From positions 1 to 52,411 of the forward strand of contig PFHB01000003.1 in the NCBI GenBank assembly GCA_002783585.1: a stretch of 52,411 bases of DNA, given 5' to 3'. Source of the stretch: Candidatus Omnitrophica bacterium CG_4_8_14_3_um_filter_43_15. GTDB lineage: Bacteria > Omnitrophota > Gorgyraeia > Taenaricolales > Taenaricolaceae. Position 1 is the first letter of the stretch. Every line of letters begins with the position of its first letter. The position numbers and the translations under genes are program-made. The notes under the pieces were generated by a model. It worked only from the letters and a program-made list of their open reading frames with translations, made no database searches and had not been told where the DNA came from. Of the stretch, positions 794 to 52,367 are shown in pieces.

Positions 794-840
794 CATATTG
801 AAAATAGACAACTTAAAACGCGGTGCCTGGCACCGGTAAA
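788..840 (+). repeat. Palindromic repeat, copy 1 (GGTGCCTGGCACC family)
   Basis: The unit has the form TTGTAAC, 18 variable bases, TTAAAAYG, then the palindrome YGGTGCCTGGCACCG and about AAA. Here the palindrome is at 821-835. The TAA inside TTGTAAC is the thi4 stop codon. Copies with exactly the same spacing lie at 8721-8773 and 20387-20439. It is probably REP-like. Confidence 0.7.
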
Positions 841-865
841 AAAGCCGTTGACAAACGGCTTTTTT
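838..865 (+). terminator. Rho-independent terminator after thi4
   Basis: A 12-bp stem formed by AAAAAAGCCGTT (838-849) and AACGGCTTTTTT (854-865), with a GACA loop and a T tract. The -35 box of the next promoter lies in the end of this stem and its loop, so terminator and promoter share DNA. Confidence 0.85.
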
Positions 866-875
866 ATGGTATAAT
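848..875 (+). promoter_or_regulatory. Sigma-70-type promoter of the marR-efflux operon
   Basis: TTGACA at 848-853 and TATAAT at 870-875 with a 16-bp spacer. Both hexamers match consensus. The expected start of transcription is near 882, just before the TAGTTAAT repeats. Confidence 0.8.
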
Positions 876-883
876 TGTTAATG

Positions 884-923
884 TAGTTAATAATTATAGT
901 AGTTAATAGTTTATATAGTTAAT
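884..923 (+). promoter_or_regulatory. Candidate MarR operator: three phased TAGTTAAT repeats
   Basis: TAGTTAAT occurs at 884-891, 900-907 and 916-923, exactly 16 bp apart; a weaker TTGTTAAT lies at 875-882. They sit between the promoter and the marR start, the last one covering the start codon. Autoregulation by the adjacent MarR protein is inferred from position. Confidence 0.55.
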
Positions 924-1395
924 GAAATTGACCATGAAACCAATGTCCTTACACAATTTTGCGGATGAGCTTAACGAGATTATGCCTGTTTTGATAAGAG
1001 AGTTTTCAAGGCGTAATTCCGAGGAGCTGTATAAAGGAAAGATTACATTGCCGCAGTTTCTTGTGATGGGTTTTATAAATGGCCGCGGCCAGGCTAAGAT
1101 GACTGACGCGGCCCGCTTTATGAGCGTCAGTACAGCGGCAATGACCGGTATTGTAAATAGGATGGTAAGGGATGGTTTAGTGGCGAGGCTATATGATTTA
1201 AAAGATCGGCGCGTGATAAATATAAAATTAACGCCGAAGGGTACAGCGCTTGTAAAAAAGATAAAAGAACAGCGCAGGGCAGCTATTATAAAGGTATTCG
1301 GCATGATATCCGAGAAAGAGCGCGGAGATTATTTAAAGATAATTACACGTATCCATAGTATACTCACAAACGATAAAGAATTTACAGGCGAATAA
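922..1395 (+). CDS. MarR-family transcriptional regulator
   Basis: A 157-residue winged-helix protein of usual MarR length. The recognition region SVSTAAMTGIVNRMVRDGLV (about 74-93) is followed by the typical wing with DRRVINIKLTPKG. MarR dimers usually repress adjacent efflux genes until a small ligand binds. It heads a run with a TolC-like channel, an RND adaptor and an RND permease, and its stop overlaps the next start by one base (TAATG), so it probably controls that pump and itself. No good Shine-Dalgarno precedes either ATG (922 or 934); the start is uncertain by four codons. Confidence 0.88.
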   Translation: MKLTMKPMSLHNFADELNEIMPVLIREFSRRNSEELYKGKITLPQFLVMGFINGRGQAKMTDAARFMSVSTAAMTGIVNRMVRDGLVARLYDLKDRRVINIKLTPKGTALVKKIKEQRRAAIIKVFGMISEKERGDYLKIITRIHSILTNDKEFTGE

Positions 1396-2672
1396 TGAAA
1401 AAGATTATTTTATTTTTCATAGTATTTTTAATGATAACAGGCTCAAGCTGCAATCTCAGGGCAGAAGAGGTCCTTTTAAACATTGATGAAGCTGTGGGGC
1501 TTGCCTTAAGGCAGAACAGGGATATTTTATTAAAGGCAGAGGATGTAAAAATAGCGCAGTCAAAGATATCCGAGGCGCAGGCAGGATTTTTCCCCACGCT
1601 TGATTTTACGGCAAGCCGCGTAAGCACAATGGATTATTATGCGAAGAGTATACCCGAGACAAAGACCCAGACAACTCTTAAGCAGTATATATATAAAGGT
1701 GGTAAGACAGTTGCTTCGGTAAGCCGCGACAAATATTCTTTAAAGGCGCAAGAGGCGCTGCTTGATAAAACAAAACTTGAAACCGTATTAAACGTAAAAA
1801 AGGCCTTTTACACGCTTTTATTGGCGCTTGATTACGTCAGGTTAAATGCGGCTATATTGACAAACTCTACAGAACACCTTATTATGCTTAAAAAGCGTTA
1901 CGATAAAGGCGAGACATCAAGGCAGGATATACTTAATGTGCAGTCATCGCTTGCCAATGCAAAAGAAGCGTATCGGGCGTCTTTAAATCAGGTGGCAAGC
2001 GGCCAGGAGTTGTTGAATAATATTTTATACCTTGATAAAGACGCAAAAATAATACCCGAAGGTGAATTTATATATGATGAGAAGGAATTTGCGTTTGACA
2101 AAGCCTTTCTTAAGGCGATCCAGGACCGGCCAGAGATAAAGCAGTATACAGCGCAAGAGCAGGCGGATAAAAAATCCATTGAAGTGGCAAAGGCGAGCGC
2201 AAGGCCAAGCGTATACGCGTCGTGGGATTATTACAGCCGTTCTAATGCATCATTAACATTTACTCCGGGGAAGGGCTGGCAGGATTACAGCGTGGTGGGT
2301 ATTACGTTTTCATGGCCTGTATTTGATGGCTGGGCAACAAAGGCAAAGGTTGATCAGGCAATAGCTGATTTAAAACAGACCCAGCTTTTTAAGGACAAGA
2401 CAGTAAAGGATATAGCGTTGGAATTAAAACAGGCGTATTTGGATTTAAAGGGTTCATTTGTAAAAATAGATGCCTCAAAAGCAGAAGTTGATTTATACCG
2501 CGATACTTTTCAGACAGCAAAAGATAAATACAAGGTTGGTATGTTAAGCTCGCTTGATTTGGATGATATATCGCTCGGATATCGCGTATCGATTTTTAAT
2601 TATAAACAAGCATTATATAATTATACAATAGCAAGTGAAAGTTTTGTCAAGGCAACAGGGGGGATACAATGA
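1395..2672 (+). CDS. TolC-like outer membrane efflux protein
   Basis: A 425-residue protein with a signal peptide (hydrophobic residues 3-18, then a Cys-containing SSCNLRAEE segment that may be a lipobox or an ordinary cleavage site). It carries two OEP repeats with long amphipathic helices, for example LRQNRDILLKAEDVKIAQSKI and the second-half RPEIKQYTAQEQADKKSIEVAK. This fold forms the trimeric channel that completes a tripartite RND pump. It is the second gene of the marR operon, overlapping its neighbours by 1 and 4 bases. Length and repeat structure are normal for the family. Confidence 0.88.
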   Translation: MKKIILFFIVFLMITGSSCNLRAEEVLLNIDEAVGLALRQNRDILLKAEDVKIAQSKISEAQAGFFPTLDFTASRVSTMDYYAKSIPETKTQTTLKQYIYKGGKTVASVSRDKYSLKAQEALLDKTKLETVLNVKKAFYTLLLALDYVRLNAAILTNSTEHLIMLKKRYDKGETSRQDILNVQSSLANAKEAYRASLNQVASGQELLNNILYLDKDAKIIPEGEFIYDEKEFAFDKAFLKAIQDRPEIKQYTAQEQADKKSIEVAKASARPSVYASWDYYSRSNASLTFTPGKGWQDYSVVGITFSWPVFDGWATKAKVDQAIADLKQTQLFKDKTVKDIALELKQAYLDLKGSFVKIDASKAEVDLYRDTFQTAKDKYKVGMLSSLDLDDISLGYRVSIFNYKQALYNYTIASESFVKATGGIQ

Positions 2673-6789: not shown

Positions 6790-6864
6790 GTCCCTCGCGA
6801 CTAAACGAGATAGCTGGTCACTCGGGACAATTTTTTAAGATGTGATAACTGGAAAAATTGGAGG
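6790..6864 (+). promoter_or_regulatory. Double-hairpin leader, element 1
   Basis: Hairpin A: GTCCC (6790-6794), UC/UC internal loop, GCGAC against GTCAC with one mismatch, GGGAC (6824-6828). Hairpin B: AATTTTT (6829-6835) against AAAAATT (6853-6859). GGAGG follows at 6860-6864, 8 bases before the ATG at 6873. The hairpin A loop contains GAGATAGCTGGT (6807-6818). Confidence 0.7.
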
Positions 6865-37991: not shown

Positions 37992-39163
37992 AAACGTTGC
38001 CTTCGTCGCCGGGCGTATACCTTATGAAGGATAAGTCCGGCGAAATTATTTACATAGGCAAGGCCGCCTCTTTAAGAAAACGGGTATCAAGCTACTTTGA
38101 TGGCAAAAGGCGCCAGGCACCAAAAAAGGCGCCAGGCGCCTTTTGTAAAACAGATGTTCTAGTTTCAAGTATAGCCGATATAGATTATTTTACTACGCCT
38201 TCAGAGGAAGAGGCGCTTTTACTTGAGGCAGCGCTTATCAGGGAAAAAAAGCCCAGATATAATGTTTTGCTTAAAGATGATAAGCGCTATCCCTTGCTTA
38301 AGCTGACGCTTAATGAGGAGTTTCCCCGCCTGATTATTGCGCGCCGCGCTAAAGACGACGGCGCGATATATTTCGGGCCATACACGAATGCGAAGCTTTT
38401 GAGAAAGGCCCTTGGCATTATGCGTAAGATGTTCCCGTTGAGAACATGTAAAGTTATCCATAAATCAGCATGCCTTAATTATCATATAAAACAATGCGCA
38501 GGCCCGTGCGTGGATAAAAAATGTAGAGGCCTGTATAAACAGGTAACCGGCGATTTGATACTTTTTCTTTCAGGAAAAAAGAAAAAGTTGATATCTAAAC
38601 TTACGCAAAGGATGAACGCTGCCTCTAAATCTTGTGATTTTGAAGCCGCAGCCAGGCTTAGGGACCAACTTAAGGCGCTTACATCGGCTGTAAAAGAGCG
38701 CAAACAAGCCAGAATAGAGGCCTTTGATATATCCAATATTTCAGGCAAGGAAGCGGTTGGCTCTATGGTATCTTTTTACAACGGCAAACCCGACAAATCG
38801 AATTACAGAAAATACAGGATAAAGACGGTTTCAGGCGTTGACGATTATGGCATGATAAAGGAGGTTATTACAAGAAGGTATAAAAAGCTTGTTTCAGAAA
38901 ACCTGCCCTTGCCGGATCTTATAGTTATTGACGGCGGCATAGGCCACGTATCTGCGGCAGCAGCCGTTTTGGACGCGCTTGGGCTTAACAGGATAAATAT
39001 CCTTGGCATAGCAAAAAAAGAGGAAAGGATTTTTTCTCGCGCAGGCGAAGAGCGTATTGGCGAAGAATTTAGAAGGCTGATTCAGCATGCGCGGGATGAG
39101 GCGCACCGTTTCGCGCAAAGCTATCACCATGTGCTAAGGAGGAAAAAGGTCATCGGGGAATAA
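37970..39163 (+). CDS. uvrC: Short UvrC-type excinuclease subunit
   Basis: A 397-residue protein against about 600 in normal UvrC. Present are the GIY-YIG nuclease (GVYLMKDKSGEIIYIGKAASLRKR, 14-37), a UVR motif (about 200-240) and the RNase H-like nuclease with D253, D321 and H379 all in place. Missing are the segment between UVR and RNase H domains and the C-terminal helix-hairpin-helix pair. Residues 46-58 are encoded by a GGCGCC palindrome insertion where UvrC has a short linker. Both active sites look intact, so it may still cut DNA with altered binding. Confidence 0.82.
   Translation: MDIKKKIKTLPSSPGVYLMKDKSGEIIYIGKAASLRKRVSSYFDGKRRQAPKKAPGAFCKTDVLVSSIADIDYFTTPSEEEALLLEAALIREKKPRYNVLLKDDKRYPLLKLTLNEEFPRLIIARRAKDDGAIYFGPYTNAKLLRKALGIMRKMFPLRTCKVIHKSACLNYHIKQCAGPCVDKKCRGLYKQVTGDLILFLSGKKKKLISKLTQRMNAASKSCDFEAAARLRDQLKALTSAVKERKQARIEAFDISNISGKEAVGSMVSFYNGKPDKSNYRKYRIKTVSGVDDYGMIKEVITRRYKKLVSENLPLPDLIVIDGGIGHVSAAAAVLDALGLNRINILGIAKKEERIFSRAGEERIGEEFRRLIQHARDEAHRFAQSYHHVLRRKKVIGE
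38105..38144 (+). repeat. In-frame GGCGCCAGGCRCC repeat inside uvrC
   Basis: GGCGCCAGGCACC (38109-38121) and GGCGCCAGGCGCC (38128-38140). AAAAGGCGCC (38105-38114) pairs with GGCGCCTTTT (38135-38144). It resembles the GGTGCCTGGCACC palindrome and adds about 13 codons without breaking the frame. Confidence 0.65.
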
Positions 39164-39183
39164 GATTCCGCAAAAGTTTTTGC

Positions 39184-39209
39184 TTGACTTATTATATAGA
39201 TTATATAAT
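39184..39209 (+). promoter_or_regulatory. Likely promoter of the polysaccharide operon
   Basis: TTGACT at 39184-39189 is followed by very A/T-rich DNA with several -10 candidates: TATAAT at 39204-39209 (short 14-bp spacer) or AATAAT at 39207-39212 (17-bp spacer). It is the only plausible promoter for the run that follows. Confidence 0.45.
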
Positions 39210-39244
39210 AATATAACCATACTATATATATACTAAAGAGAGTT

Positions 39245-39274
39245 ATGGGGGTTTATTCATCAGGGACAGGATAA
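39245..39274 (+). CDS. Leader mini-ORF 1 (9 codons)
   Basis: ATG to TAA encoding MGVYSSGTG, with AGAG upstream. Its TAA runs straight into the ATG of a second mini-ORF (TAAATG). It may be chance; it is listed because of its place in a leader with a terminator-like hairpin. Confidence 0.25.
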   Translation: MGVYSSGTG

Positions 39275-39322
39275 ATGAAAAGCGCGCCAGCGGGTAACAA
39301 AAATAGGAGTCAGGCCGTGTAA
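39275..39322 (+). CDS. Leader mini-ORF 2 (15 codons)
   Basis: ATG to TAA encoding MKSAPAGNKNRSQAV. Ribosomes on it would cover the 5' arm (39310-39317) of the hairpin before the pilZ-like start, so its translation could control that hairpin. Coding status is not proven. Confidence 0.3.
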   Translation: MKSAPAGNKNRSQAV

Positions 39323-39358
39323 AAAAGGTTTTTCTCTATTATTCGGCCTGATTTTTTT
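39305..39358 (+). promoter_or_regulatory. Terminator-like hairpin between AGGAG and the start codon
   Basis: AGGAG at 39305-39309, then an 8-bp perfect stem TCAGGCCG (39310-39317) and CGGCCTGA (39344-39351), then seven Ts and the ATG at 39359. It can be read as a terminator (attenuator) or as a hairpin that brings a distant Shine-Dalgarno next to the start. Confidence 0.6.
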
Positions 39359-39769
39359 ATGCTTAAGAAAATATTTAAAAAGAATATAAATACAAGGGTA
39401 TTACCGCGTATAAAACTTGAGAATTTGATAAAATATAGGATAGATTCTGGCGCGCCAGGCAATGTTGCCATAGCAAATGTAAAAGATATAGGCGGCAGTG
39501 GAATACTGTTTTTGTCAAAGGCCGAACTCTCCAGGGAGAATATGCTTAGCATATCAATAAATTTTCCAGGGCTTGACCCTATAGAAACAAAGGCGCAGGT
39601 GGTAAGGGTAAGGCGGACTAAGGCAGGAGAGTATGAGATAGGAGCGCATTTTATCTCTATAGATGAACAGAAAAGGCGGGATCTTAGCCGCAGAATAGAG
39701 TTTATATTAAAAAAAATTGCCGATAGAAAATCCTTGTTGGGCGGGCTTAAGAGGGTATTTAGAATATAG
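39359..39769 (+). CDS. PilZ-domain protein (putative c-di-GMP receptor)
   Basis: A 136-residue protein with the two PilZ signatures: RVLPR (R13-x3-R17) and DIGGSG (a DxGxxG form of the usual D/NxSxxG). These residues bind cyclic di-GMP in characterised members; the Ser-to-Gly change makes binding likely but not certain. It is the first gene of the polysaccharide locus, so c-di-GMP control of export is a reasonable inference. No Shine-Dalgarno lies directly upstream. Confidence 0.72.
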   Translation: MLKKIFKKNINTRVLPRIKLENLIKYRIDSGAPGNVAIANVKDIGGSGILFLSKAELSRENMLSISINFPGLDPIETKAQVVRVRRTKAGEYEIGAHFISIDEQKRRDLSRRIEFILKKIADRKSLLGGLKRVFRI

Positions 39770-39770
39770 A

Positions 39771-40910
39771 ATGAAAATCTTCGGGGCGGGGATAATGGCT
39801 TTTACAGGTTTTTTATGCTTTTGCGGCTATGCCTTTGCCGAAGGCATAGATTTAGGCCCATGCAAGCTTTACCCTGTAATAAAAACAGAAGGGCGCTATG
39901 AAAGCAATATTTTTCAGATGTCAAGCAATACTAAAAGTGAACTGGTAAACACTATCACGCCGGAGATTTTGTTTAAGTTTAAATTATCAGGAGATAATGT
40001 ATTTGATATAAGCTATAAATATGAGATGATCAATTTTGATAGATACTCGAGCGATAATAGGCGGAATAATAAATTTAACGCAAATCTGGAATTATACGGC
40101 AGCAGTTATTTTTTTAAGCTCAAAGAGCGGTATGACGAGGTAACAAGCACTTATACCTATGCGGAATATTTCGATGATTATGTTCAAAATGAGGCTTTTA
40201 TTTCAACAGGAAGAGAGTTTAACGATATTTCTTTTGAACTTTTTTATGAAAATCTGGATTACGAATATAATAATATTGATTCTGTAAACAGCCGCAATGA
40301 CCATGTTTTCGATATAGCCGGATTTTATAATATTTTACCGAAAACCAAGGCGTTGGCAGAATATAGTTTTACAAAAATCAATTACGATAATTCTTCAGCA
40401 AAAGATGGAATGGCAAATGAGTTTTTGGTCGGAGTGCAGGGCGAATTGGCTCAGAAAATAACAGGTACTGTAAAGGCAGGTTACCAATCAAGAAATTACG
40501 ACGGCTATACTGACTGGAAAGAACCGGTTACTTACGCCAATATCGTGTATGAGGCGTCAGAAAAGACATTACTAGATGCCATGGCAGAAAGAAAACCGCT
40601 GGAATCGATTGATACAGCGCAGAATTTTTATGAAAGCAATATAGTGGGTTTTGGGATCAGGCACGATGTTACTGCCAAGACAGCAACGTATCTTAAACTT
40701 AAATATAATTTTGACAGATATCCTGCTACAAATACGGATTCTGTCAGGAGAGAAGATGATATTTGGAACGCAAAGATCGGCCTTGATATTAATTCAAGGC
40801 AGTGGCTTGACATAGGCGCTAACTATGAATTTCAGAAGAGAAATTCAAACATAAGTTCGAATGACTACGAAAATAATATAACGTCAATTTATCTGAAGGC
40901 GATGTATTGA
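39771..40910 (+). CDS. Outer membrane beta-barrel protein of the polysaccharide locus
   Basis: A 379-residue protein: signal peptide 1-23 (CGYAFAEG), then many alternating, aromatic-rich beta strands (DISYKYEMINFDRYS, FKLKERYDEV, SFELFYENLDYEYNN) ending in an aromatic C-terminus (KAMY). Proteins of this kind (EpsL/putative barrel porin type) accompany exopolysaccharide clusters and probably form an outer membrane pore for the polymer. I start at ATG 39771, one base after the preceding stop; the frame is open to 39717 inside that gene. Confidence 0.72.
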   Translation: MKIFGAGIMAFTGFLCFCGYAFAEGIDLGPCKLYPVIKTEGRYESNIFQMSSNTKSELVNTITPEILFKFKLSGDNVFDISYKYEMINFDRYSSDNRRNNKFNANLELYGSSYFFKLKERYDEVTSTYTYAEYFDDYVQNEAFISTGREFNDISFELFYENLDYEYNNIDSVNSRNDHVFDIAGFYNILPKTKALAEYSFTKINYDNSSAKDGMANEFLVGVQGELAQKITGTVKAGYQSRNYDGYTDWKEPVTYANIVYEASEKTLLDAMAERKPLESIDTAQNFYESNIVGFGIRHDVTAKTATYLKLKYNFDRYPATNTDSVRREDDIWNAKIGLDINSRQWLDIGANYEFQKRNSNISSNDYENNITSIYLKAMY

Positions 40911-40911
40911 T

Positions 40912-42009
40912 ATGGGCAAAAAATATTTAACTTTAACAGCAATTATTTTGGCCGCAGAGTTATTTGCCGCCCTGCCCTGCATGGGGAAAGCGCCCAAACA
41001 GGCCAAGGCCGGATACGGTGTTTGCGATGTGGCCATAGAATGCTTGGAAAACAAGAAGAAATCATACGATTCACAGGCTTATGAGCTAAACAGAGAAATA
41101 GCGCGGCTGCAGGAGAAACAGGATGCCGAAGCCGAGATGGATCAGCTTGTCATATATTTTATAGAGGCCCAGAATATGAGCGCGCTGGCCGGCAAACAGA
41201 TACAAGATTACTTGAAAAAGAAAGATCAGATAGAATTAGCCGGCAGCGAGCCTGACTATGTGGAATATAGGATTTCGGCGCATGATGAACTTCAGATAAA
41301 CGTTTATGGGGAACCTGACCTTACTAAAACAGTCAGGGTTGCCGCCGACGGAACCATATCATATCCGCTGATCGGCAAAGTTAATGTTGACGGGCTGACA
41401 ACGCAGGGGCTTGAAGAAAAATTAAGCAAGTTGTTAATTGACGGCGGTTATATTGTTAACCCGCAGGTCAGCGTATATGTAGAAAGGTTCAGCTCTGTGT
41501 CTATTTTAGGCGAAGTGCGTAATCCCGGGTCATATGAATTGAAGGGCAGGCTCAGTATTATGGACGCTATTGCCCAGGCCGACGGATTTAACATAGACGC
41601 GGATATAAACAACGTAAAAATATTAAGAATTGAAGACGGGCAGCAAAAGACAATCAATATTAAACTGGGCGATATTAAAAAAGGGATGGAAGGCGTGGAG
41701 ATAATCCTTAAGCCAAACGATACCATATTCGTTGAAAAAATAGGCAAGGCTACGGTGTTGGGCGAAGTAACCAGGCCCGGCACGTTTGAGCTTAAGGACA
41801 GGATTACTGTTTTGGAGGCAATAGCGATGGCAGGCGGTTTTACAGATATCGCCGCAATCAACGGCATGAGGATTATCCGTGAAAATCCGGGCAGTAAAAA
41901 GAAAGTGATAAGGATAAATGTTACGGATGTAATTTCCAGAGGAAAAAAAGAAAAGGATATAGATCTTGTTCCGGGCGATATAGTTTATGTGCCGGAGAGT
42001 TTATTTTGA
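40912..42009 (+). CDS. Polysaccharide export protein (Wza-type, SLBB domains)
   Basis: A 365-residue protein. Signal peptide (1-25) is followed by a helical, probably coiled segment (about 40-110), then the export domain YRISAHDELQINVYGEPDLTKTVRVAADGTISYPLIG (about 120-205) and two SLBB domains (VSILGEVRNPGSYEL; ATVLGEVTRPGTFEL). Wza-like octamers carry polymer through the periplasm to the outer membrane. The N-terminal coil is an addition to the normal form. It is 12 bases from the Wzc-type kinase gene. Confidence 0.9.
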   Translation: MGKKYLTLTAIILAAELFAALPCMGKAPKQAKAGYGVCDVAIECLENKKKSYDSQAYELNREIARLQEKQDAEAEMDQLVIYFIEAQNMSALAGKQIQDYLKKKDQIELAGSEPDYVEYRISAHDELQINVYGEPDLTKTVRVAADGTISYPLIGKVNVDGLTTQGLEEKLSKLLIDGGYIVNPQVSVYVERFSSVSILGEVRNPGSYELKGRLSIMDAIAQADGFNIDADINNVKILRIEDGQQKTINIKLGDIKKGMEGVEIILKPNDTIFVEKIGKATVLGEVTRPGTFELKDRITVLEAIAMAGGFTDIAAINGMRIIRENPGSKKKVIRINVTDVISRGKKEKDIDLVPGDIVYVPESLF

Positions 42010-42021
42010 GCGGGGCGTAAA

Positions 42022-43869
42022 ATGATACCGAAGTCGGATTTAAAAGAACTTAATTTTAACGATTACCTTGAGATTGCAGGCAAGCACAGATGGATCGTGG
42101 TGACTTTTTTTGTCGCTATAGTCAGTTTTGTCGCATTTTTTTCTTTTTGGGTGGAGCCGACCTACAGGGCGACCACTGTTATTTTAATAGAAAGGCAGCA
42201 GCCAAAGGTTCTTTCCGTGGAAGAGGTTTACGGCATGGGCTTAGCTGACAAAGAATATTATGAGACGCAATATAAGATATTGCGTTCACGCACGCTTATT
42301 AAGCTGATCTTTGACGATATGAATTTATATCTGGATCCGGAGTTTTCGGATGCAAGGGATCCGATAAGTGTTTTCATATCGCGGCTTACCATTGATCCGG
42401 TAAGAAATAGCCGTCTGGTAAACCTGCATTTTGACGGCAAAGACCCGCAGAAGATAACGACTATAGCCAACACTCTGGCGGAGCTGTACATAAAGCAGGA
42501 CGCGGAAATAAGGACAAAGGCCTCCAGGGATGCGGTGTCATGGCTTATGGAGCAGATTGTGTCAGTGAAAAAGAGGCTGGAGGAATCGGAAACGGCGCTG
42601 GTCAAATATATGGAGCAGGAAAAAATTACCGAATCGCCCGAAGCCGGCAATAAAGACAATACTGTGAATTTGCCGAAGACGTTAAAAAGGGAGCAGTTAA
42701 GGCTTGAGGTGGAGATATCGGAAATTTCAAGAAGATACGGCCCTAAACATCCCCAGATGGTCAAGGTTCTATCAGAGCTTGAATCGGTAAAATCAAAGCT
42801 GGATATTGAAACGCAAAATTTAATCAATCTTAACAGAAAGGCGGCTCAGTATACTATTTTAAAGAGAGAGGTTGATTCCAACCGGGACATTTACGAGACT
42901 CTTGTCAAGAGGGCCAAAGAGACAGGCGTTTCAGAGCAGCTTGAGGCGACTAATATCAGGGTTGTAGATCCAGCTGAGGTGCCTGATGGGCCTATCCGTC
43001 CGAATAAAAAGAACAATATAATTTTAGCCTGTTTAGTCGGGCTTATGCTGGGCGTCAGCACGGCATTTTTTATTGAATATATTGATAATACCGTAAAAGA
43101 CCCGGATGATGTTACTAATTATATAGGGCTTCCTTTTTTAGGGTATGTGCCCTCCGCAAGAAAAGAAGCGCGTACTGAGGATGAAATAGATTTGATAGTC
43201 TATCAGAAGCCGCATTCAGTTATATCCGAGGCCTATAGGTCAATACGGACATCAATTTTATTTGCCTTTGCGGGCAAGCCGTCAAAAACAATACTCATGA
43301 CCAGTTCAAGCCCCCAGGAAGGAAAGACCTCGGCGGCTATAAACCTGGGCATTACCATGGCAAATACCTCAGAGAAGGTCCTTCTTGTAGACGCGGATTT
43401 GCGTTGTTCACGGCTGCACAAGAGTTTCGGAATACAGAAAGAAAATGGTTTGAGCGATTATTTAGTCGGCAATATAACTCTGGACGCGGCAATAAAACCC
43501 ACAAGAATAGAAAACCTGTCTTTATTGACAGCCGGCTCTACCCCGCCGAATCCGGCGGAATTATTGCATTCCGGCAAGATGAAAGCATTTCTGGAAGATG
43601 CAATAAAAAAGTTTGACAGGATAATTATCGACGCGCCTCCGATATTGATGGTTACAGATGCCGCCATACTCGCTAATATTGTGGACGGCGTTATAATGCT
43701 TGTAAGATGCGGCAAGATCCATATAGAAATCGTTTCAAGGACCAAACAAAAACTTCAGGATTCCAAGGCCAATATACTGGGAGTGTTGTTGAATAACGTG
43801 GATTACGGCAAAGAGAGTTATTATCACTACTATTATTACAGCGACGAAGAAAAAAAGAAAAATGTATGA
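42022..43869 (+). CDS. Wzz/Wzc-type chain-length regulator and BY-kinase
   Basis: A 615-residue inner-membrane protein. An N-terminal Wzz domain with TM1 (about 25-45) and a periplasmic coiled coil leads to TM2 (about 330-355). The BY-kinase domain has Walker A SSPQEGKTSAAINL, Walker A' VLLVDADLR and Walker B IIIDAPP. The C-terminal tyrosine cluster YYHYYYYSDEE is the usual autophosphorylation site. It controls polymer length and export with the Wza-type protein upstream. It overlaps the next gene by 8 bases. Confidence 0.92.
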   Translation: MIPKSDLKELNFNDYLEIAGKHRWIVVTFFVAIVSFVAFFSFWVEPTYRATTVILIERQQPKVLSVEEVYGMGLADKEYYETQYKILRSRTLIKLIFDDMNLYLDPEFSDARDPISVFISRLTIDPVRNSRLVNLHFDGKDPQKITTIANTLAELYIKQDAEIRTKASRDAVSWLMEQIVSVKKRLEESETALVKYMEQEKITESPEAGNKDNTVNLPKTLKREQLRLEVEISEISRRYGPKHPQMVKVLSELESVKSKLDIETQNLINLNRKAAQYTILKREVDSNRDIYETLVKRAKETGVSEQLEATNIRVVDPAEVPDGPIRPNKKNNIILACLVGLMLGVSTAFFIEYIDNTVKDPDDVTNYIGLPFLGYVPSARKEARTEDEIDLIVYQKPHSVISEAYRSIRTSILFAFAGKPSKTILMTSSSPQEGKTSAAINLGITMANTSEKVLLVDADLRCSRLHKSFGIQKENGLSDYLVGNITLDAAIKPTRIENLSLLTAGSTPPNPAELLHSGKMKAFLEDAIKKFDRIIIDAPPILMVTDAAILANIVDGVIMLVRCGKIHIEIVSRTKQKLQDSKANILGVLLNNVDYGKESYYHYYYYSDEEKKKNV

Positions 43870-45241
43870 AGCCAAATTTTTTGATATTGCCATTGAAGCA
43901 TGTATAATCTTTCTGATAATTTTTACGCCTATGGCCTTCGGAAGCGTCGGGCTCGGCCCGCAGATAGTTTTTATTTCAATCAGCGAGTTTATATTTTTTT
44001 TATGGCTTCTCAAATCTATAAAGTCAGGCAGAACGGATTATTCATTTAGCGCCTTTAGTTTTTTATTTGTAATATTTCTTGCCGTAATTTTTTTCCAAAC
44101 AATACCCCTGCCAAAATTTTTACTAAAAGTATTATCACCAGCGATGTACCGCAATTACGTGGATTTTCTGCCGGGATATAAAGAGCATTTTATGTGGCGT
44201 AGTATAAGCGCTCATCCGCAAGCCGCGCGAATAGAATTTTTAAAATTTTTGTCATACGCGCTTATAATTTTTGTTATCGCTGATAATTTTAAAAAAAAAT
44301 CGCAGATCCTTCATGTATTGGGAGCCGTTTCTATCGCCGGATTTATAATAGCTATTTTCGGTATAGCCCAGAAATTCAGCTACAACGGCATGATTTACTG
44401 GGCCGTGCCTGTTCCGGAAGGCGCGGGGCCGTTCGGCCCCTTTGTCAATAAAAATCATTTTGCCGGGTTTATGGAGTTGGCCATTCCGATAACAGCGGTT
44501 TTTGTTTTTATAACGCAAAAAGCCGAAAAAAAGATATTTTTCGCCTTTATGGCTGTTGTTATGCTTTTATCCTTATTTTTATGCCTGTCAAGGGCCGGTA
44601 TAGTGAGTTTTTTTCTTGCCTGCGGTATTGTGATGGCGCTGGTTTTTTTAAGGCGGTCTTTGGCAAAATATATTTTTTATGCTCTTCCTGTAATCTTGAT
44701 AATCTTCGCGTTGATATTCTTGGTGACAAAGGGTGTTTTAGTGGAAAAATTTGCAGCCGCGCCGGAGGCCTTTTTAAAAAGGGCCGCAATATACAAAGAC
44801 ACCGTAAGGATGTTTTTAGATTTTCCGCTGTTTGGGTCGGGTTTAGCGGGTTTTACCGATATATTCCCCATGTACAAAACTTACGCCGGCGGTATGGTTT
44901 TCAGGCATCCGGAAAGCGACTGGCTGCAATTTTTATCGGAAACAGGACTGGCCGGATTTTTATGCATCGTGATTTCCATATGGTTATTTTTCAAAGACAT
45001 TCTATGCTGCCATTTTTTGGGCAAAGGCCGGTGCGTTTCTTTAAAAAACGTTAATTTGCGGCATGACAGGTTTATCCTGCTGATCATATCGGCAGGCATT
45101 GTGTCTATAATAAGCATAATACTGCACGGTTTTTTAGATGTAAACCTGCACATACCCTCTAATATGCTTTTAACCTGTATTGTTGCGGCAATATTAGTAG
45201 CCTCGGCGCATGTGAAATTTAAAGAAGATGACAATAAATAA
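43862..45241 (+). CDS. O-antigen polymerase/ligase-like membrane protein (first)
   Basis: A 459-residue protein with about 10-12 hydrophobic helices. The Wzy_C signature is visible: LSRAGIVSFFLACG, then a large periplasmic loop with FRHPESDWLQFLSETGLAG. This group includes Wzy polymerases and WaaL ligases, which sequence alone cannot separate. It is fused by overlap to the kinase gene and to a TPR gene. Confidence 0.8.
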   Translation: MYEAKFFDIAIEACIIFLIIFTPMAFGSVGLGPQIVFISISEFIFFLWLLKSIKSGRTDYSFSAFSFLFVIFLAVIFFQTIPLPKFLLKVLSPAMYRNYVDFLPGYKEHFMWRSISAHPQAARIEFLKFLSYALIIFVIADNFKKKSQILHVLGAVSIAGFIIAIFGIAQKFSYNGMIYWAVPVPEGAGPFGPFVNKNHFAGFMELAIPITAVFVFITQKAEKKIFFAFMAVVMLLSLFLCLSRAGIVSFFLACGIVMALVFLRRSLAKYIFYALPVILIIFALIFLVTKGVLVEKFAAAPEAFLKRAAIYKDTVRMFLDFPLFGSGLAGFTDIFPMYKTYAGGMVFRHPESDWLQFLSETGLAGFLCIVISIWLFFKDILCCHFLGKGRCVSLKNVNLRHDRFILLIISAGIVSIISIILHGFLDVNLHIPSNMLLTCIVAAILVASAHVKFKEDDNK

Positions 45242-46115
45242 AAATGTTACCAAAATAATATTTTTTATCGGCTTCTGGGCCGTTTTTTATAGCCAGGCTG
45301 TACTTTGGAGGAATTATCTGGCAGAAAGAACCGGCAGGCAGCCAGAATTAAATTTTATGAACGCGCAATACCATTTTCAGCGCGGCATAGAATATGGCTC
45401 TGAAGAGGAATTGTATAAAGCAGTAAAATTAGACCCAACTAACCCCCATACGCATCATAAACTGGCAAGTTATTATGTTTCTTTTTACGCAGGCGCCCGG
45501 CTGGACAGGGCTTATGAAGAATACAGAAAGGCGATGCTTTTTGCGGACGAAAAATTTCTATCAAAAATTTTGCAAGATGCATATGATAACGCGCAGAATA
45601 TTCAGCGTTTAAAAGAGATTGTGCCTAATACAGGCAAAGCGAGGTATTTATTTGCCGAGTTTTTACGCGATAAAAATATTTACGACGAGGCAATCCTGGA
45701 ATTCAAACAGGCCGCGCTAATGTCCGGACAAGCGCGCAATAATAAAATACTTGCCGGTTCGTATAACTGGATTGCCATTATATATATGTGGCAGGGCCGT
45801 TTTGCGGACGCGGTGGAATATTTTGATAAAGCGTTCTTTTGCGCGCGGGAGAATGTCCTTAAGTCCTGGATTTTGAGGAATTTGGGCAATACATACGCGG
45901 GTATGGAGGATTTTAAAAAAGCCGAAAGTGCCTGTAAAAAATCCATAGAAAGCGACCCATCTGCAGCCGCCAATTATTACACCCTGGGAAATGTTTACGA
46001 TAAGATTGGTTTGCCGAGACAGGCGCGCGACTGTTATTATACCGCATTAAAATTTACTAACGATAGATATCTTTTGGAACAGATATCAAAAAAATTAAAA
46101 GAGATAAACAGTTAA
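45228..46115 (+). CDS. Membrane-anchored TPR protein of the polysaccharide locus
   Basis: A 295-residue protein with one N-terminal transmembrane helix (about 6-25) followed by at least five TPR-like units, for example EEELYKAVKLDPTNPHTHHKLASYYVSFY and AVEYFDKAFFCARENVLKSWILRNLGNTYAGMEDFKKAESACKKSIE. Such proteins often pair with the Wzy-like membrane protein, whose gene it overlaps by 14 bases. It is probably an accessory to polymerisation or ligation in the periplasm. Confidence 0.8.
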   Translation: MTINKNVTKIIFFIGFWAVFYSQAVLWRNYLAERTGRQPELNFMNAQYHFQRGIEYGSEEELYKAVKLDPTNPHTHHKLASYYVSFYAGARLDRAYEEYRKAMLFADEKFLSKILQDAYDNAQNIQRLKEIVPNTGKARYLFAEFLRDKNIYDEAILEFKQAALMSGQARNNKILAGSYNWIAIIYMWQGRFADAVEYFDKAFFCARENVLKSWILRNLGNTYAGMEDFKKAESACKKSIESDPSAAANYYTLGNVYDKIGLPRQARDCYYTALKFTNDRYLLEQISKKLKEINS

Positions 46116-46117
46116 AA

Positions 46118-46936
46118 ATGGAAAAAATAGAAATAAAACCAGCCGACAGCTCCGGACTTTTTAATTTCAGAGAGTTATGGTCATACAGGGAGTTATTGTA
46201 TTTTTTGGTTTGGCGTAATATAAAAGCCCGCTACAGCCAGACAGCCATAGGTGTTTTATGGGTTGTTATACAGCCGTTGATGGTAATGCTGATTTTTAGC
46301 GTGCTTTTCGGAAGGTTAGCCAATCTTCCGTCGGAAGGGCTCCCTTACACTGTTTTCGTATTTTCCGGTTTATTGCCGTGGAATTTAATCGCCAACGCTG
46401 TCAGCGGAGCGGGGTCCAGTCTGATAATGAATAGAAATCTGGTGGCAAAGGTTTATTTCCCCAGGATCATCATACCTTTGGCAAGGGTGCTGGAGGGCTT
46501 GATAGATTTTGGCATATCCTGCTGCATCTTGTTTTGCCTGATTTTGTTCTATAAAATAATCCCTGCGCGGACGATAGTAGCCCTGCCGTTTTTTATTTTA
46601 TGGACAATTGTACTTGCGTTAGGCGTTGGATTTTGGTTGTCTGCGCTGAATGTCAGGTACAAAGACGTTGCCCATATAATGCCGTTTTTGTCGCAGATTT
46701 GGTTTTATGTTTCTCCTGTGGCCTATACCTTGAATTTAGTCCCGGAAAAGGCCCGCTGGCTGTATTCATTAAATCCTATGGTGGGAATAATAGAAGGTTT
46801 TAGATGGTCGTTATTCGCAAGAGGGGCAAGTTTGACAATAGTTTTCCCGGCCTCATTAATAATAACCGCAGTTATTTTTATAACAGGTTTGTTCTATTTT
46901 TACAACTCTGAAAAGACGTTCGCAGACATAATTTAA
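46118..46936 (+). CDS. ABC-2 polysaccharide exporter permease (Wzm type)
   Basis: A 272-residue inner-membrane protein with six helices. The N-terminal block FRELWSYRELLYFLVWRNIKARYSQTAIGVLWVVIQPL is characteristic of the Wzm/KpsM family, as is FLSQIWFYVSPVAYTLNLVPEKARWLYSLNPMVGIIEGFRW. It forms the channel that moves a finished lipid-linked glycan across the inner membrane, with the ATPase encoded 4 bases downstream. Confidence 0.92.
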   Translation: MEKIEIKPADSSGLFNFRELWSYRELLYFLVWRNIKARYSQTAIGVLWVVIQPLMVMLIFSVLFGRLANLPSEGLPYTVFVFSGLLPWNLIANAVSGAGSSLIMNRNLVAKVYFPRIIIPLARVLEGLIDFGISCCILFCLILFYKIIPARTIVALPFFILWTIVLALGVGFWLSALNVRYKDVAHIMPFLSQIWFYVSPVAYTLNLVPEKARWLYSLNPMVGIIEGFRWSLFARGASLTIVFPASLIITAVIFITGLFYFYNSEKTFADII

Positions 46937-46940
46937 AGAT

Positions 46941-48206
46941 ATGGCTAATATAGCGATTAAAGCGGAAGGCATAGGTAAAAAATATCTTATAAACCAGGTC
47001 AGGCGCGGCCCGTCTAATCTGCGGGACCATTTGTCCGATTCCTTAAGGCGGGCATTATTTTACGGGATTAGCCGCAAAAATCCGGATAGCCGTATTATGC
47101 ATGCCGTCTGGGCGCTTAAGGATGTCTCTTTTGAAATCGAGAGGGGCAGCGTAGTGGGCATTATCGGCAGAAACGGCGCAGGAAAAACAACCTTGCTAAA
47201 GATATTGTCCCGCGTCATAAGGCCCACTTCGGGATCAGCCGAAGTTTACGGCAGGGCAGGTTCTTTGCTTGAGGTCGGGCTCGGTTTTCACGAGGAGCTG
47301 ACAGGCAGGGAAAATATTTATCTTAACGGCGCCATACTCGGTATGAAAAAAAGAGAGATAGACCGGAAATTTGACGAGATAGTCAGTTTTTCCGAATTGG
47401 AGGATTTTTTGGAAACGCCCATCAAGTATTACTCCAGCGGAATGTATGTACGGCTGGCGTTTGCCATAGCGGCCCATTTACAGACCGAGATTCTTTTTAT
47501 AGACGAAATATTAAGCGTGGGCGACATGCGTTTTCAGAAAAAATGTATAAGCAAAATAGAAGAGGCCGGCAGGGAACGGACGGTGTTATTTGTCAGCCAT
47601 AATATGTCTCTTGTCAACGCGCTTTGTTCCTGCGCCCTGTTGTTAAACGGCGGCCGCCTTGAGGCAATCGGCGACAAGGAATCGATCATAAAAAAATATA
47701 TTGAAAATACCTACAAACTTATTGACACGGGTTTATCCTCCCGTACAGACAGGACCGGCAACGGCGCGATGCGTTTCGTGAAATATCATTTGGAAAACAG
47801 CAAAGGGCAAAAGGTTGCTGCCTTCAGGTCAGGTGAAGATGTTTCTATCGTTGTCGAATATGCAGGGGCCTTGGCCAAAAAGCTGCAGAACGTTTCCGTT
47901 TCATTTGTATTAAATGATTTTTTGGGCAATATCGTTACTGACCTGGCGAACAGGATAGCCGGTGATATATGGCATGAAGTGCCTCCGAAAGGCATAATAA
48001 AATGCCGCATCAAAAAACTGCCTTTAATGCCCGGGAAATATACATTTAACGCCTTCTGCCAGGTTAATGCCCTGGTTTCTGATATGATATGGAGCGCCGG
48101 TATCTTTGAGGTGGAGCCTGGGCCATTTTTTACCAGCGGCAGACTGCCGGATTCAGGTTTTGGGCCGGTATTATTTGAAAATGAATGGACCGTTGAGGGG
48201 TCATAG
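46941..48206 (+). CDS. ABC-2 polysaccharide exporter ATPase with glycan-binding domain (Wzt type)
   Basis: A 421-residue protein. The ATPase part has Walker A GRNGAGKTT (about 76-84), signature YSSGMYVRLAFA and Walker B ILFIDEILSVGD. Residues about 270-421 form an extra beta-rich domain (MRFVKYHLENSKGQ, FEVEPGPFFTSG) like the C-terminal carbohydrate-binding domain of Wzt, which recognises the polymer's end modification. This points to ABC-dependent export of a specific, end-capped glycan. Confidence 0.92.
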   Translation: MANIAIKAEGIGKKYLINQVRRGPSNLRDHLSDSLRRALFYGISRKNPDSRIMHAVWALKDVSFEIERGSVVGIIGRNGAGKTTLLKILSRVIRPTSGSAEVYGRAGSLLEVGLGFHEELTGRENIYLNGAILGMKKREIDRKFDEIVSFSELEDFLETPIKYYSSGMYVRLAFAIAAHLQTEILFIDEILSVGDMRFQKKCISKIEEAGRERTVLFVSHNMSLVNALCSCALLLNGGRLEAIGDKESIIKKYIENTYKLIDTGLSSRTDRTGNGAMRFVKYHLENSKGQKVAAFRSGEDVSIVVEYAGALAKKLQNVSVSFVLNDFLGNIVTDLANRIAGDIWHEVPPKGIIKCRIKKLPLMPGKYTFNAFCQVNALVSDMIWSAGIFEVEPGPFFTSGRLPDSGFGPVLFENEWTVEGS

Positions 48207-49601
48207 ATGCAGATGGACCAAATTAAATTAGACAGAAAACATATGCTTGTCATAGCGGCAGCCATTTTTATCGTATTTATATGGGCGCGTTATGTAAGCG
48301 CGCCGTTTTTTATATTTGTATTTTCGGCAGGGCTCCTGATTATGCTGCTGGCCAAGGAGGCGCTTTTATTTTATCTCTTTGCGGTATTTTTTTGGATGCC
48401 CACGTCGGTTAGCTACGGGCCTTTTGGAGAATTTTTAAAATTTAAGACGCTTCCTGAGGTGGGCATCTATATCTTTTTTACCGGCTGGTTTTTAAAAAGT
48501 ATCTTAACCGCAAAGGTCAGGAATGTAATAGAAGATATTTTAAAAACGCCTTTTTCGTTTCCTTTGGCTTTGTTTTTTTTAGGCGGGGCAATCGCCTATT
48601 TTCTGAATGATAATACGGGATGGGAAATAACTCAGGATTTATTTGTTAAAAATTGTATTTACGGGTTGACGGTGTACATATTGGCCAACAAAATCATTAA
48701 AACCCCGGGGCAACTTAATAAATGCCTGCTGGCTCTGGTGATAGGTTGTTTTATAATAGGCAGCAGGTATTTTTATTTTTTTCAGATAAGGCCTGAAGAA
48801 CTGTACGACACTGAGGAATCCATGCTAAGGCTCGGAGGTTTTGTCGAATTCGGCAAAAGCGCATTCGGCATCACATCTTTAGGCCTGGCGGCTTATTTGG
48901 CGGCCATATTGCCGATATCAGCCAGTTTGTTTTTTTCAAAATCAGGCGTTTTACAGAAAACCATCGAGTTTATAAGTTTCGCTTTTTTTTCTTATTTACT
49001 TATTCTTACCGGAAGCCGAAGCTGCTGGATCGCTGCCGCCATATCCACTGTTATTGTTTTTGTATTGCATATGAAATATACAAAGGCATATTATTTTAAA
49101 GGCATATTATTTCTGTTTTTGGCGTATCTTGGGTCTGTTACTGTTTTAGGCGATAAAATGCTGCCCGAATGGATTTTTAAAAGGGTAGAGACGTTGAGGT
49201 ATTTTTCCGGGGATATGAGCCTTTTACAGCGCGTAGATATATGGAGAGATAGTTTGCAACTCTTGGCTTTTAACCCGCTGGGCATGGGTTTTCAAAAAGC
49301 TTTTAACGTAGGCTCTTATTTTACCACGCCGCATAATATCTATCTTTCCATAGGATTGACTAACGGCATTTTGGGCCTGGCTGGATTTATCTGGTTTGTC
49401 GCGGCCTGGTTTAATGGGATGTTTTTGCGACTAGGATCAGAATCAATTTCAGACAAGGCAATCATCATAGGGCCTATCGCGGCTATAGTTTCTTTTTTAA
49501 TCTGCGGTTTTTTTGATTCGTACAACTATTTTTTCCTCAATATAAGCACTATATGGATAATTTTTGGGGCATCATCATTTCTTTTAAAGGATAAGGGATA
49601 G
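48207..49601 (+). CDS. O-antigen polymerase/ligase-like membrane protein (second)
   Basis: A 464-residue protein with about 11 hydrophobic helices. The Wzy_C signature is present: [14 protein letters not shown], and after a periplasmic loop [21 protein letters not shown] with the conserved His-Asn. It directly follows the Wzt stop (ATG is the next base). Two such proteins in one locus may divide the work of polymerase and ligase; which is which cannot be said. Confidence 0.82.
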
Positions 49602-49608
49602 ATTTATT

Positions 49609-50451
49609 ATGCTTAAAATAAGTGTGGTAACACCTTCGTATAATCAGGCCCAATTCCTTGAAGATACTATAAAGTCAGTCCTGCACCAGGGCTATGCCAA
49701 TCTGGAATATATTATAATCGACGGGGGTTCGACTGACGGAAGCGTAGATATTATAAAAAGATACGCAGATAAACTTAAATACTGGGTGAGCGAGCCGGAC
49801 AACGGCCGCGGAGATGCGGTTAACAAAGGGTTTAAACACGCTACAGGCGATATTATGGCATGGCTTGGTTGCGGCGATCAATATTTTCCATGGACACTGA
49901 GAGTCGTAAATGAAATATTTACTGCCCTGGCTCAAATAGAATGGTTGACTACAAGCGCCTTCTTTTTTTGGTATAAATCAAGGATTCCTAGTTTTGGGGG
50001 ATACAAAAGCGGTTTTGGCAAAGAATTATTTTTTAACGGCGCATATTTGCCAGGGCGTTGGACTATACAACAGGAATCGACTTTTTGGAGGCGGTCGCTT
50101 TGGGAAACCGCCGGCGGTTATGTAAACAAAGATTTTAAAATGGTGCCGGATTTTGAATTATGGGCCAGATTCTGGCAGAAGGCGCAACTTTACACCACTT
50201 CTGTGCCCTTGGGCGGCATAATGGTGCATAAAGAACAAAAGGGCTACTTCCCGGAAGCTTATAATGTAGCCAAGTCTGTTTTAAAGGGATGTCATCACAA
50301 TAGCGATATAAAAATGTTTTATCATAATGTATGTTATGCATTATCTCGGATACCCATATTGAGGCGCTTGATAAGATCCACAGCTTTCACGGTTAATTAC
50401 AACTGCGGTAATGATCGGTGGATAATCGAAAAAATACGTGCACGGATATAA
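49609..50451 (+). CDS. Family 2 glycosyltransferase
   Basis: A 280-residue GT-A-fold enzyme. The N-terminus [24 protein letters not shown], then [16 protein letters not shown] and [30 protein letters not shown] give the nucleotide-sugar site. The metal-binding DxD position is occupied by the GCGDQY segment. The acceptor region includes [17 protein letters not shown]. It adds one sugar to the growing glycan on the cytoplasmic face; the sugar is unknown. Confidence 0.9.
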
Positions 50452-50466
50452 AGGGAGGTTTTAATT

Positions 50467-51480
50467 ATGTGGAATAGCAGGCGGGTTTTGGTTACAGGCG
50501 GGGCGTCTTTTGTAGGTTCGCATTTGGTTGATGCCCTTGTTAAGCGCAAGGCAAAGGTTAGGGTGGTAGATGATTTAAGCAGCGGCAAGCTTGAAAACAT
50601 AAAAGGCCATATCAAATCAAGCAAGGTTGTTTTTTTAAAAGGCGATCTTAAGGATGCGAACGTCATAAAAAAAGCCATCAATGGGATAGATACAGTATTT
50701 CATTTAGCCGCCGATCACGGCGGACGCGGATACGTGGATTTGCATCAGGCTGCCTGTGCCTCAAATATGATGCTGGACGGCATGTTGTTTGACGTGTGCA
50801 GAAGGCAGGGCGTAAAAAAAATTGTATATGCCTCGTCAGGTTGCGTCTATCCTAATTACCTGCAGACAGACCCGAAAAAAATTTTATATCTTAAGGAAAA
50901 AATGGTTGGTCCGCCGTATGACGCCGACAACATGTACGGTTGGGCCAAGCTTATGGCAGAAATGACTTTGAAGGCGTACTATAAGGACTATGGCATGAAG
51001 TCAGCCAGTTGCCGTTATTTTACGGTATACGGCGAGCGCGGGGTAGAGAACCATGCGGTTATTGCCATGATTGCGCGCGCTTTTATCAAGCAGAATCCGT
51101 TTTTTGTATGGGGGACAGGAGAACAGATACGCAACTGGACTTATGTCGGCGATATAGTCGAAGGCACCATACTTGCCGCGGAAAAAATCAATGACGGCAC
51201 AGCGGTAAATCTGGGAACGATGGAACGCATCCGTGTTATAGACGCGGTAAAAGAGGTCCTGCGTTATACAGGCCATAAGGCCGCGATCAATCTTCAGCCG
51301 GATATGCCAACAGGCCCATATAACAGGGTTGCTGATAATTCGCTTGCGAAAAAGCTTTTGGGATGGCGGCCAAACGTCAAATTTATGGACGGTTTCCACA
51401 GGACGATAAACTGGTATTTTTCCACAAAAAACCGCAGGGATGTTGAAAAGATTTTAAGGAAGTCGTTGACGGAGCGCTGA
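50467..51480 (+). CDS. NAD-dependent sugar epimerase/dehydratase (extended SDR)
   Basis: A 337-residue extended SDR. The NAD loop VLVTGGASFVGSHLVDAL is at the N-terminus, the catalytic region is YASSGCVYP and the active site Tyr/Lys lies in MYGWAK. The segment HLAADHGGRGYVDLH resembles GDP-mannose 3,5-epimerase, which also has a Cys near the SSxCxYP motif, as here. It would supply a nucleotide sugar for the locus. The Shine-Dalgarno GGGAGG is six or seven bases upstream. Confidence 0.85.
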   Translation: MWNSRRVLVTGGASFVGSHLVDALVKRKAKVRVVDDLSSGKLENIKGHIKSSKVVFLKGDLKDANVIKKAINGIDTVFHLAADHGGRGYVDLHQAACASNMMLDGMLFDVCRRQGVKKIVYASSGCVYPNYLQTDPKKILYLKEKMVGPPYDADNMYGWAKLMAEMTLKAYYKDYGMKSASCRYFTVYGERGVENHAVIAMIARAFIKQNPFFVWGTGEQIRNWTYVGDIVEGTILAAEKINDGTAVNLGTMERIRVIDAVKEVLRYTGHKAAINLQPDMPTGPYNRVADNSLAKKLLGWRPNVKFMDGFHRTINWYFSTKNRRDVEKILRKSLTER

Positions 51481-51494
51481 ATGCAGGCTGTGGC

Positions 51495-52367
51495 ATGAAT
51501 AACAAAATAAAAAAAGCCTACGATATTTACAGGGCATATGGTTTAAGAGGGTTGATTAAAAGAACAGCTTCTGCATCCAAGAAGCGGCCAAGTCTGCCGG
51601 TAGGCACATCTTTGGTATGGCAGAAAAAATTTTACGAGTTCAGGGAAGAAGTACTGAAAACACGCCATTGCCATAAATATTTTGACCTTGTGAAATGCCT
51701 GGCAGGCCATTCTTTATTTTTCTACAAGGTAATTCCTTTGTTTTCCATACCGTTATTACTGCGTCCGACTAATATAGTGGAGCTTGGGTCTGCTTTTACG
51801 TCTTATCTGGAAAAGTGCAATGACCCGTGGGGCAGATACGATAAACTCGAAGAGGGCCTTATAAGCACCAGGGTGCTGTTAACCGCCTGCAGATTTTTAA
51901 ATAAATACGGCATAAAGGCGAGCTTGACCAGTATTGACATAAGGGATGACAAAAAAAAGTTTGAAGATACTGAGAGACACCTGCAGGAATTGGACCTGTT
52001 ACAGTATTGGAAACCGTTTTACGGAACAGACAGTTTGGATTGGCTTAAAAGAAACAAAGACCTGATACATCTGGCCTATGTTGATTCAAGCCATACGTAT
52101 AAACAGGTAAAGGCCGAATTAGAGGCGTTGGCCCCGCAGATGATTCAAAATGGGGTAATTATAATTGACGACGGTTTTACAATTAACGATCCCAGTGATG
52201 TATCATGGCGGGTAAACGAGGATGAAGGAGGCAGGTCAAAAGGCGGTGAATTCGGGGCGGTTTTGGATTTTTTAAAAGAGCATCCTGAGTGGCGCAATAC
52301 ATGGTCTCCCGAAGGGATGGTTTATTTATGCCGCAACGCTTCTGTAATGAAGTTTTTATCCGAATAA
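51495..52367 (+). CDS. SAM-dependent class I methyltransferase
   Basis: A 290-residue protein. The SAM-binding region has NIVELGSAFTSYLEK (motif I), LTSIDIRDD (motif II) and later LIHLAYVDSSHTYKQVKAELEAL and GVIIIDDGF, the pattern of Methyltransf_24-like sugar O-methyltransferases. In a locus with a Wzt glycan-binding domain, it could methylate the polymer end or a sugar; this is inference. The N-terminal 90 residues are helical and unassigned. Confidence 0.78.
   Translation: MNNKIKKAYDIYRAYGLRGLIKRTASASKKRPSLPVGTSLVWQKKFYEFREEVLKTRHCHKYFDLVKCLAGHSLFFYKVIPLFSIPLLLRPTNIVELGSAFTSYLEKCNDPWGRYDKLEEGLISTRVLLTACRFLNKYGIKASLTSIDIRDDKKKFEDTERHLQELDLLQYWKPFYGTDSLDWLKRNKDLIHLAYVDSSHTYKQVKAELEALAPQMIQNGVIIIDDGFTINDPSDVSWRVNEDEGGRSKGGEFGAVLDFLKEHPEWRNTWSPEGMVYLCRNASVMKFLSE

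Follow-up and report, generated by a model that had tools for sequence, protein, structure and literature searches.

A terminator-like hairpin set against the start codon of a PilZ gene: a probable leader attenuator of a polysaccharide operon in an uncultured bacterial lineage

Introduction

The eut/ANTAR, dfn/LoaP and mgtCBR leader attenuators share a common order of elements, in which a promoter is followed by a leader, an intrinsic terminator and the operon. The RNA target of ANTAR proteins, as outlined in PMC3369931, consists of two hairpins with A1/G4 hexaloops, the second of which overlaps the terminator, while the mgtCBR leader as described in PMC3641672 contains two mini-ORFs, as does the leader analysed here. 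Polysaccharide operons and other long operons that are checked by terminators, as appears to be the case here, have been described for the B. subtilis EAR element and for LoaP/RfaH-type systems (accounts in PMC7858274 and PMC12691694).

Hairpins have also been implicated in bringing a distant Shine-Dalgarno (SD) sequence to its start codon. In the bridged ribosome sites of bacteriophage T4 genes 38 and 25 an intervening hairpin shortens the spacing from 22 to 5 and from 27 to 11 nt, respectively, according to the account in PMC3014915, and the split ribosome site of E. coli thrS indicates that a long hairpin is tolerated inside a ribosome binding site (as presented in PMC3936740). A preliminary description of the DNA studied here had likened it to the gene 38 site, and the published geometry bears out that likeness: the SD is distant, a hairpin intervenes and the spacing is shortened. 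The T4 sites are a tested precedent, whereas the leader described below is known from the sequence of one genome.

Results

The window analysed is an entire contig of 52,411 bases from a genome of 1.28 Mb in 91 contigs that is ∼94% complete. Its + strand carries 12 genes between positions 39359 and 52367, with neighbours overlapping slightly or lying at most 16 nt apart, and the contig ends (52411) shortly past the last of them. The first gene (39359..39769) encodes a PilZ-domain protein (PF07238, E 2e-9), and the 11 downstream genes (39771..52367) were assigned from NCBIfam/Pfam-type domain matches. In order, these encode a BBP2_2 outer-membrane barrel that is weakly EpsL-like, a Poly_export/SLBB protein, a Wzz-tyrosine kinase (Wzc-like), a Wzy_C protein, a TPR protein, an ABC-2 permease, a Wzt-like ATPase, a membrane protein with a weak IctB-family match, a glycosyltransferase, an NAD-dependent sugar epimerase and a last, unknown product for which the NCBIfam search gave no match. 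This run of tightly packed genes beginning at ATG 39359 agrees with the earlier placement of the hairpin in the leader of a polysaccharide operon.

As a side observation on the first gene product, RVLPR stands at the first c-di-GMP motif of the PilZ protein and DIGGSG at the position of the second. The usual second motif is DxSxxG, so the residues suggest that c-di-GMP binding may be altered; the PilZ relatives in genomes G032 and G014 retain DISAGG.

The upstream transcription unit is murJ-uvrC, and 195 bases separate the uvrC stop (39163) from the PilZ ATG (39359-39361). Within this gap lie a promoter-like site, two mini-ORFs, an AGGAG, an 8-bp hairpin and a run of seven T residues (T7) that leads directly into the start codon. 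The promoter-like site, shortly past uvrC (TTGACT-17-AATAAT, 39184..39212, + strand), matches the consensus at 10 of 12 positions; a scan of 10 kb returned 34 such sites against 24.6 in shuffles, and the match is only suggestive of a promoter. No second promoter-like site was listed by the scan on the + strand over 39164-39359, and none was found between the hairpin and the PilZ ATG. PilZ transcripts, whether they start at the putative 39184 promoter or come from uvrC, must therefore cross the hairpin.

Direct reading and a repeat search confirmed the anatomy given in the preliminary description. The hairpin (39310..39351, + strand) has 8 exact pairs, 6 of them GC, formed by TCAGGCCG at 39310-39317 (5' arm) and CGGCCTGA at 39344-39351 (3' arm) around a 26-nt loop with weak inner pairs. 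The AGGAG (39305..39309, + strand) abuts its 5' side, and T7 (39352..39358, + strand) fills the space between the 3' arm and the ATG. A GC-rich stem directly 5' of a U tract is the form expected of an intrinsic terminator, and the terminator-like character claimed earlier is upheld by its rarity: a stem of at least 8 bp (5 GC) plus T6 arose in 1/5000 dinucleotide shuffles of 39219-39361. The T7 tract has a T-tail score of 5.11, and the predicted folding energy is -17.0 kcal/mol for the core stem-loop and -21.5 kcal/mol with an AGGAG:UUUUU extension. Taken over its full length, the leader shows no more stable fold than its shuffles (z -0.91), and thus the signal resides in the hairpin alone.

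Hairpins of this terminator-like kind exceed chance in the genome: 34 were found in 313,831 bases, 19 of them intergenic, whereas three shuffled copies gave 3, 4 and 0. When the genome was searched for copies of the leader itself, short AT-rich or terminator-arm fragments were returned and nothing longer. As no other hairpin-T site is listed from the uvrC stop at 39163 to 39300, the hairpin could be the ordinary terminator of murJ-uvrC, or else the end of a free-standing small RNA made from the 39184 promoter; PilZ would then be reached by leakage and translated from an SD-less start, and the AGGAG and its spacing would be coincidental. Against this, the promoter-like site precedes the hairpin rather than following it, and a 12-gene operon would be left dependent on leakage.

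The position of the PilZ start codon is supported. There is no in-frame ATG, GTG or TTG upstream of it back to the TAA at 39320, the N-termini of the G032 and G014 PilZ proteins, compared by eye, fall within several residues of ATG 39359, and the codon signal is strong right from the start (log-odds 10.6 over the first 30 codons). The second mini-ORF and PilZ share one frame with a single stop separating them, and an AGGA stands 3 nt 5' of the mini-ORF start at 39275; the PilZ frame could thus be imagined to begin there, with the TAA at 39320 being an assembly error or read through and the hairpin being coding. We consider this very improbable, since the codon score is negative over the 12 codons past the TAA, both relatives begin near the present ATG and coding DNA is not expected to hold a GC-rich hairpin with T7.

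No SD of at least 4 bases lies 3-13 nt from the PilZ ATG, and the 3' end of the genome's 16S rRNA carries the canonical anti-SD CCTCCTT. An SD of at least 4 bases was found near 250/435 genome starts against 59/435 in a -60..-41 control, the near-side counts being inflated by the simple in-house gene caller, which favours SD starts. SD-less starts are therefore not rare in this genome (185/435), and with 41/109 starts that follow an upstream gap of at least 80 nt also without an SD of 4, the PilZ start is not unusual here. The frequency of such starts would also suit a PilZ gene expressed by leakage past a murJ-uvrC terminator.

The 16S rRNA gene (G000:C52, L141:1501-2993 (-), ∼552-1560 (-)) was itself seen to be apparently interrupted near its 3' end, just past TTGTACAC, by an insertion of ∼900 bases with a 153-codon ORF whose product, by eye, resembles a homing-endonuclease-type protein. 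The CCTCCTT end lies 3' of the insertion.

Two mini-ORFs had been proposed in the leader. Both exist on the + strand, the first with 9 codons (MGVYSSGTG, 39245..39274) and the second with 15 (MKSAPAGNKNRSQAV, 39275..39322), but their number is within chance, since 20% of 20000 shuffles contain at least as many. The codon log-odds of mini-ORF 2 is close to zero (0.9 over 15 codons) compared with that of the first 30 codons of PilZ. Nor does mini-ORF 2 end inside the 5' arm, as had been stated: its TAA (39320-39322) falls 2 nt past the 8-bp arm, where the inner part of the hairpin is weakly paired.

A ribosome stopping at this TAA could in principle cover the 5' arm, block the terminator and reinitiate at PilZ 36 nt downstream. 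Such coupling would fit with the stop of mini-ORF 1 directly adjoining the start of mini-ORF 2 (a stop and start at most 4 nt apart occur in 2.6% of shuffles) and with the U-rich loop ahead of the 3' arm, which we infer to be a possible pause site; moreover, in E. coli a terminator is repressed when a stop codon lies closer to it than ∼27 nt, with termination falling from 90% to <10% in one construct pair described in PMC4824070. However, the mini-ORFs show no real coding signal and no codon run for tRNA sensing, mini-ORF 2 starts only 35 nt 5' of the stem, and in the E. coli data presented in PMC7858274 terminators are close to 100% active when they lie no more than 100 nt into an ORF. The earlier suggestion that ribosome movement on the mini-ORFs selects between the states is not borne out by these results, and we regard ribosome-coupled attenuation as quite unlikely.

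The AGGAG is separated from the ATG by 49 nt, and by 7 nt if the hairpin is skipped (AGGAG-TTTTTTT-ATG), as the preliminary description had pointed out for this start without a local SD. The geometry is that of a split site of the T4 gene 38/25 type, with a distant candidate SD, a stable hairpin and a usable effective spacing. Unlike in the T4 genes, the hairpin here is also terminator-like, and what remains as spacer is its T tract, which is capable of pairing with the SD; for thrS, too, no terminator is described in the hairpin in the account of PMC3936740. Opening the AGGAG, T7 and ATG is predicted to cost 6.4 kcal/mol with the hairpin kept and 24.9 with everything melted, and the AGGAG:anti-SD duplex would return 6.8 kcal/mol, so that a bridged ribosome site at PilZ is energetically feasible in the model. 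Against bridging, the AGGAG is only 22-25% unpaired in the predicted mRNA and has the U tract as a potential pairing partner.

Bridging is not a general feature of this genome. An SD 5-mer within 10 nt of the 5' side was found at 1/44 intergenic terminator-like hairpins, namely that of the PilZ leader; this is about the chance expectation for the set, as a coincidental AGGAG beside a plain terminator would have it, but it falls on the one start that would need it. The bridged pattern with an 8-bp stem occurs at 1/435 starts, compared with 0.1 expected from shuffles (0.4 at 7 bp and 1.0 at 6 bp), with 5-bp stems it was observed twice against 2.65 in shuffles, and it was found in 0/212 genes of the relatives' loci. 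Given these counts, we conclude that the genome does not use bridged sites as a class. For the PilZ gene alone, we tentatively propose that a bridged site may be the likeliest route by which the first gene is translated after read-through.

Read-through might instead be switched by a protein or a ligand, through a riboswitch, an ANTAR protein, a BglG/RAT system or a NusG paralogue, and both the promoter-leader-terminator-operon architecture and the one GAF-ANTAR antiterminator encoded in the genome would be in keeping with this. An Rfam search of the window matched no family at the gathering score, and matches at E up to 10 were at chance level; one bglG-cis-reg-like match (17 bits vs 80) was judged to be chance. 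An alternative fold, in which ATCAGG (39259-39264) pairs with CCUGAU (39347-39352) as an antiterminator, has a predicted energy of -24.1 vs -31.0 kcal/mol and was rejected, being equalled or bettered by 752/1000 leaders with a shuffled upstream part. Thus neither a known aptamer nor a better-than-chance antiterminator was found for an RNA-only switch. The PilZ leader contains no A1/G4 hexaloop on a stem of at least 4; it has four on 3-bp stems, without a tandem pair whose second member lies over the 5' arm, and ANTAR control was rejected as the required tandem hairpins are absent.

The protein searches, in which absences fall short of proof since the genome is ∼94% complete, gave one NusG match and no paralogue for LoaP/RfaH-type control, no CAT_RBD protein for BglG/RAT antitermination and no CsrA. 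With all these searches negative, a switched attenuator appears improbable. In contrast to eut/ANTAR, dfn/LoaP and mgtCBR, the PilZ leader lacks an antiterminator, an ANTAR double hairpin, a NusG paralogue and a sensing codon run, and its terminator tail touches the start codon; the missing Rfam match in the window and the single NusG in the genome likewise set it apart from the EAR and LoaP/RfaH systems.

Terminator-like tails lie against start codons at a few places in this genome: a hairpin with a T-rich tail ending 4-12 nt 5' of a start was found at 5/435 starts vs 1.15 in shuffles. At the GAF-ANTAR gene a 13-14 bp hairpin is followed by TTATTTTTT and an ATG without an intervening SD, and an AAGGG 5 nt 5' of the stem gives an effective spacing of 14. 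This gene is a second case in which a terminator tail adjoins an ATG lacking an SD, and the arrangement is thus possibly testable at more than one place. Separately, the gene for an RtcB ligase (L087:10287-13292), which is split by an intein, was seen to be directly preceded by a hairpin that has the SD inside its 3' arm and a T tract as the spacer to the ATG.

Three other operons of the genome have a promoter, a leader terminator and then a first gene, these being pyrG, a DUF1846-carA-like operon and the GAF-ANTAR gene (promoters identified, and pyrG and carA named, by eye). Regulatory-looking terminators in these leaders oppose the idea that the PilZ hairpin simply closes murJ-uvrC or a small RNA, which we consider rather unlikely.

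The same three leaders drew attention for another reason. The GAF-ANTAR protein (L079:2844-3545 (-)) is the sole ANTAR protein of the genome and lies beside glutamate-synthase-like genes (some names by eye). The GAF-ANTAR, pyrG and DUF1846-carA-like leaders (L079:2844-3545 (-), L079 near 923 (-) and L078 near 16453 (-)) each have a hairpin with an AAYGGC A1/G4 hexaloop overlapping the terminator 5' arm, which the PilZ leader lacks, and an exact 14-mer, AAACAAYGGCGTTT, occurs at two genome sites only, in the pyrG and DUF1846 leaders. By eye, the first (P1) hairpins of these leaders are imperfect or missing. Judging from these motifs, a small ANTAR regulon is possible, comprising GAF-ANTAR itself, pyrG and the DUF1846-carA-like operon.

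A dispersed palindromic repeat was also noticed, with a core ACTAAACGTGATAGCT within TCCCTCGT...CTCGGGAC arms. Copies in the window lie at 6800, 10352, 19663, 32275, 33011 and 35862, with others across the genome (35 sites at up to 2 mismatches and 59 at up to 3, vs 5 for a reversed control), and some lie upstream of genes and are terminator-like in appearance.

For comparison, 29 barrel-gene loci were fetched, all from other orders than the host. PilZ lies directly 5' of the barrel gene only in G032 (L050), where PilZ follows a sigma70-like promoter and a terminator-like hairpin of 11 bp; there the hairpin is inside a 61-codon ORF and an ordinary SD lies 3' of it. This promoter-hairpin-PilZ arrangement is one supporting case and not conservation. 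Among the 26 of 29 barrel-gene leaders examined (L060, L064 and L068 had too little upstream sequence), 3 have a hairpin in the gap and 0/26 have a T tract against the ATG. A search of GTDB contigs for orthologous leaders returned one distant Shewanella locus.

Discussion

Because the only promoter-like site lies upstream of the hairpin, a leader terminator with read-through is the best-supported reading of this locus, and we think that positions 39310-39358 probably form a leader attenuator, an intrinsic terminator with the putative promoter (39184-39212) on one side and the operon's first codon on the other. Most transcripts would then stop near 39355-39358, giving a leader RNA of ∼140 nt, and operon expression would come from read-through past the hairpin. 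The alternatives weighed above partly overlap with attenuation, and the likelihoods attached to them need not add up to certainty.

After read-through, no other fold of the mRNA would be as stable as this same hairpin, and once the outer AGGAG:U5 pairs opened, the hairpin would set the AGGAG 7 nt from the ATG. It is conceivable, if somewhat speculative, that the hairpin has two successive jobs: it would terminate the majority of transcripts and, in RNAs that escape termination, refold and bring the AGGAG to the start, with the U tract serving as the terminator tail and later as the spacer. A third, closed state would arise from the weak pairing of AGGAG with U5.

Looking forward, if the attenuator reading is true, even in its plain form, this element would gate a 12-gene operon for surface polysaccharide in an as yet uncultured lineage. 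If the hairpin does hold both jobs, the terminator that silences the gene would be built into that gene's own ribosome site. Mutations that weaken the terminator would in that case raise RNA yet reduce the protein made from each RNA, which would be an unusual coupling.
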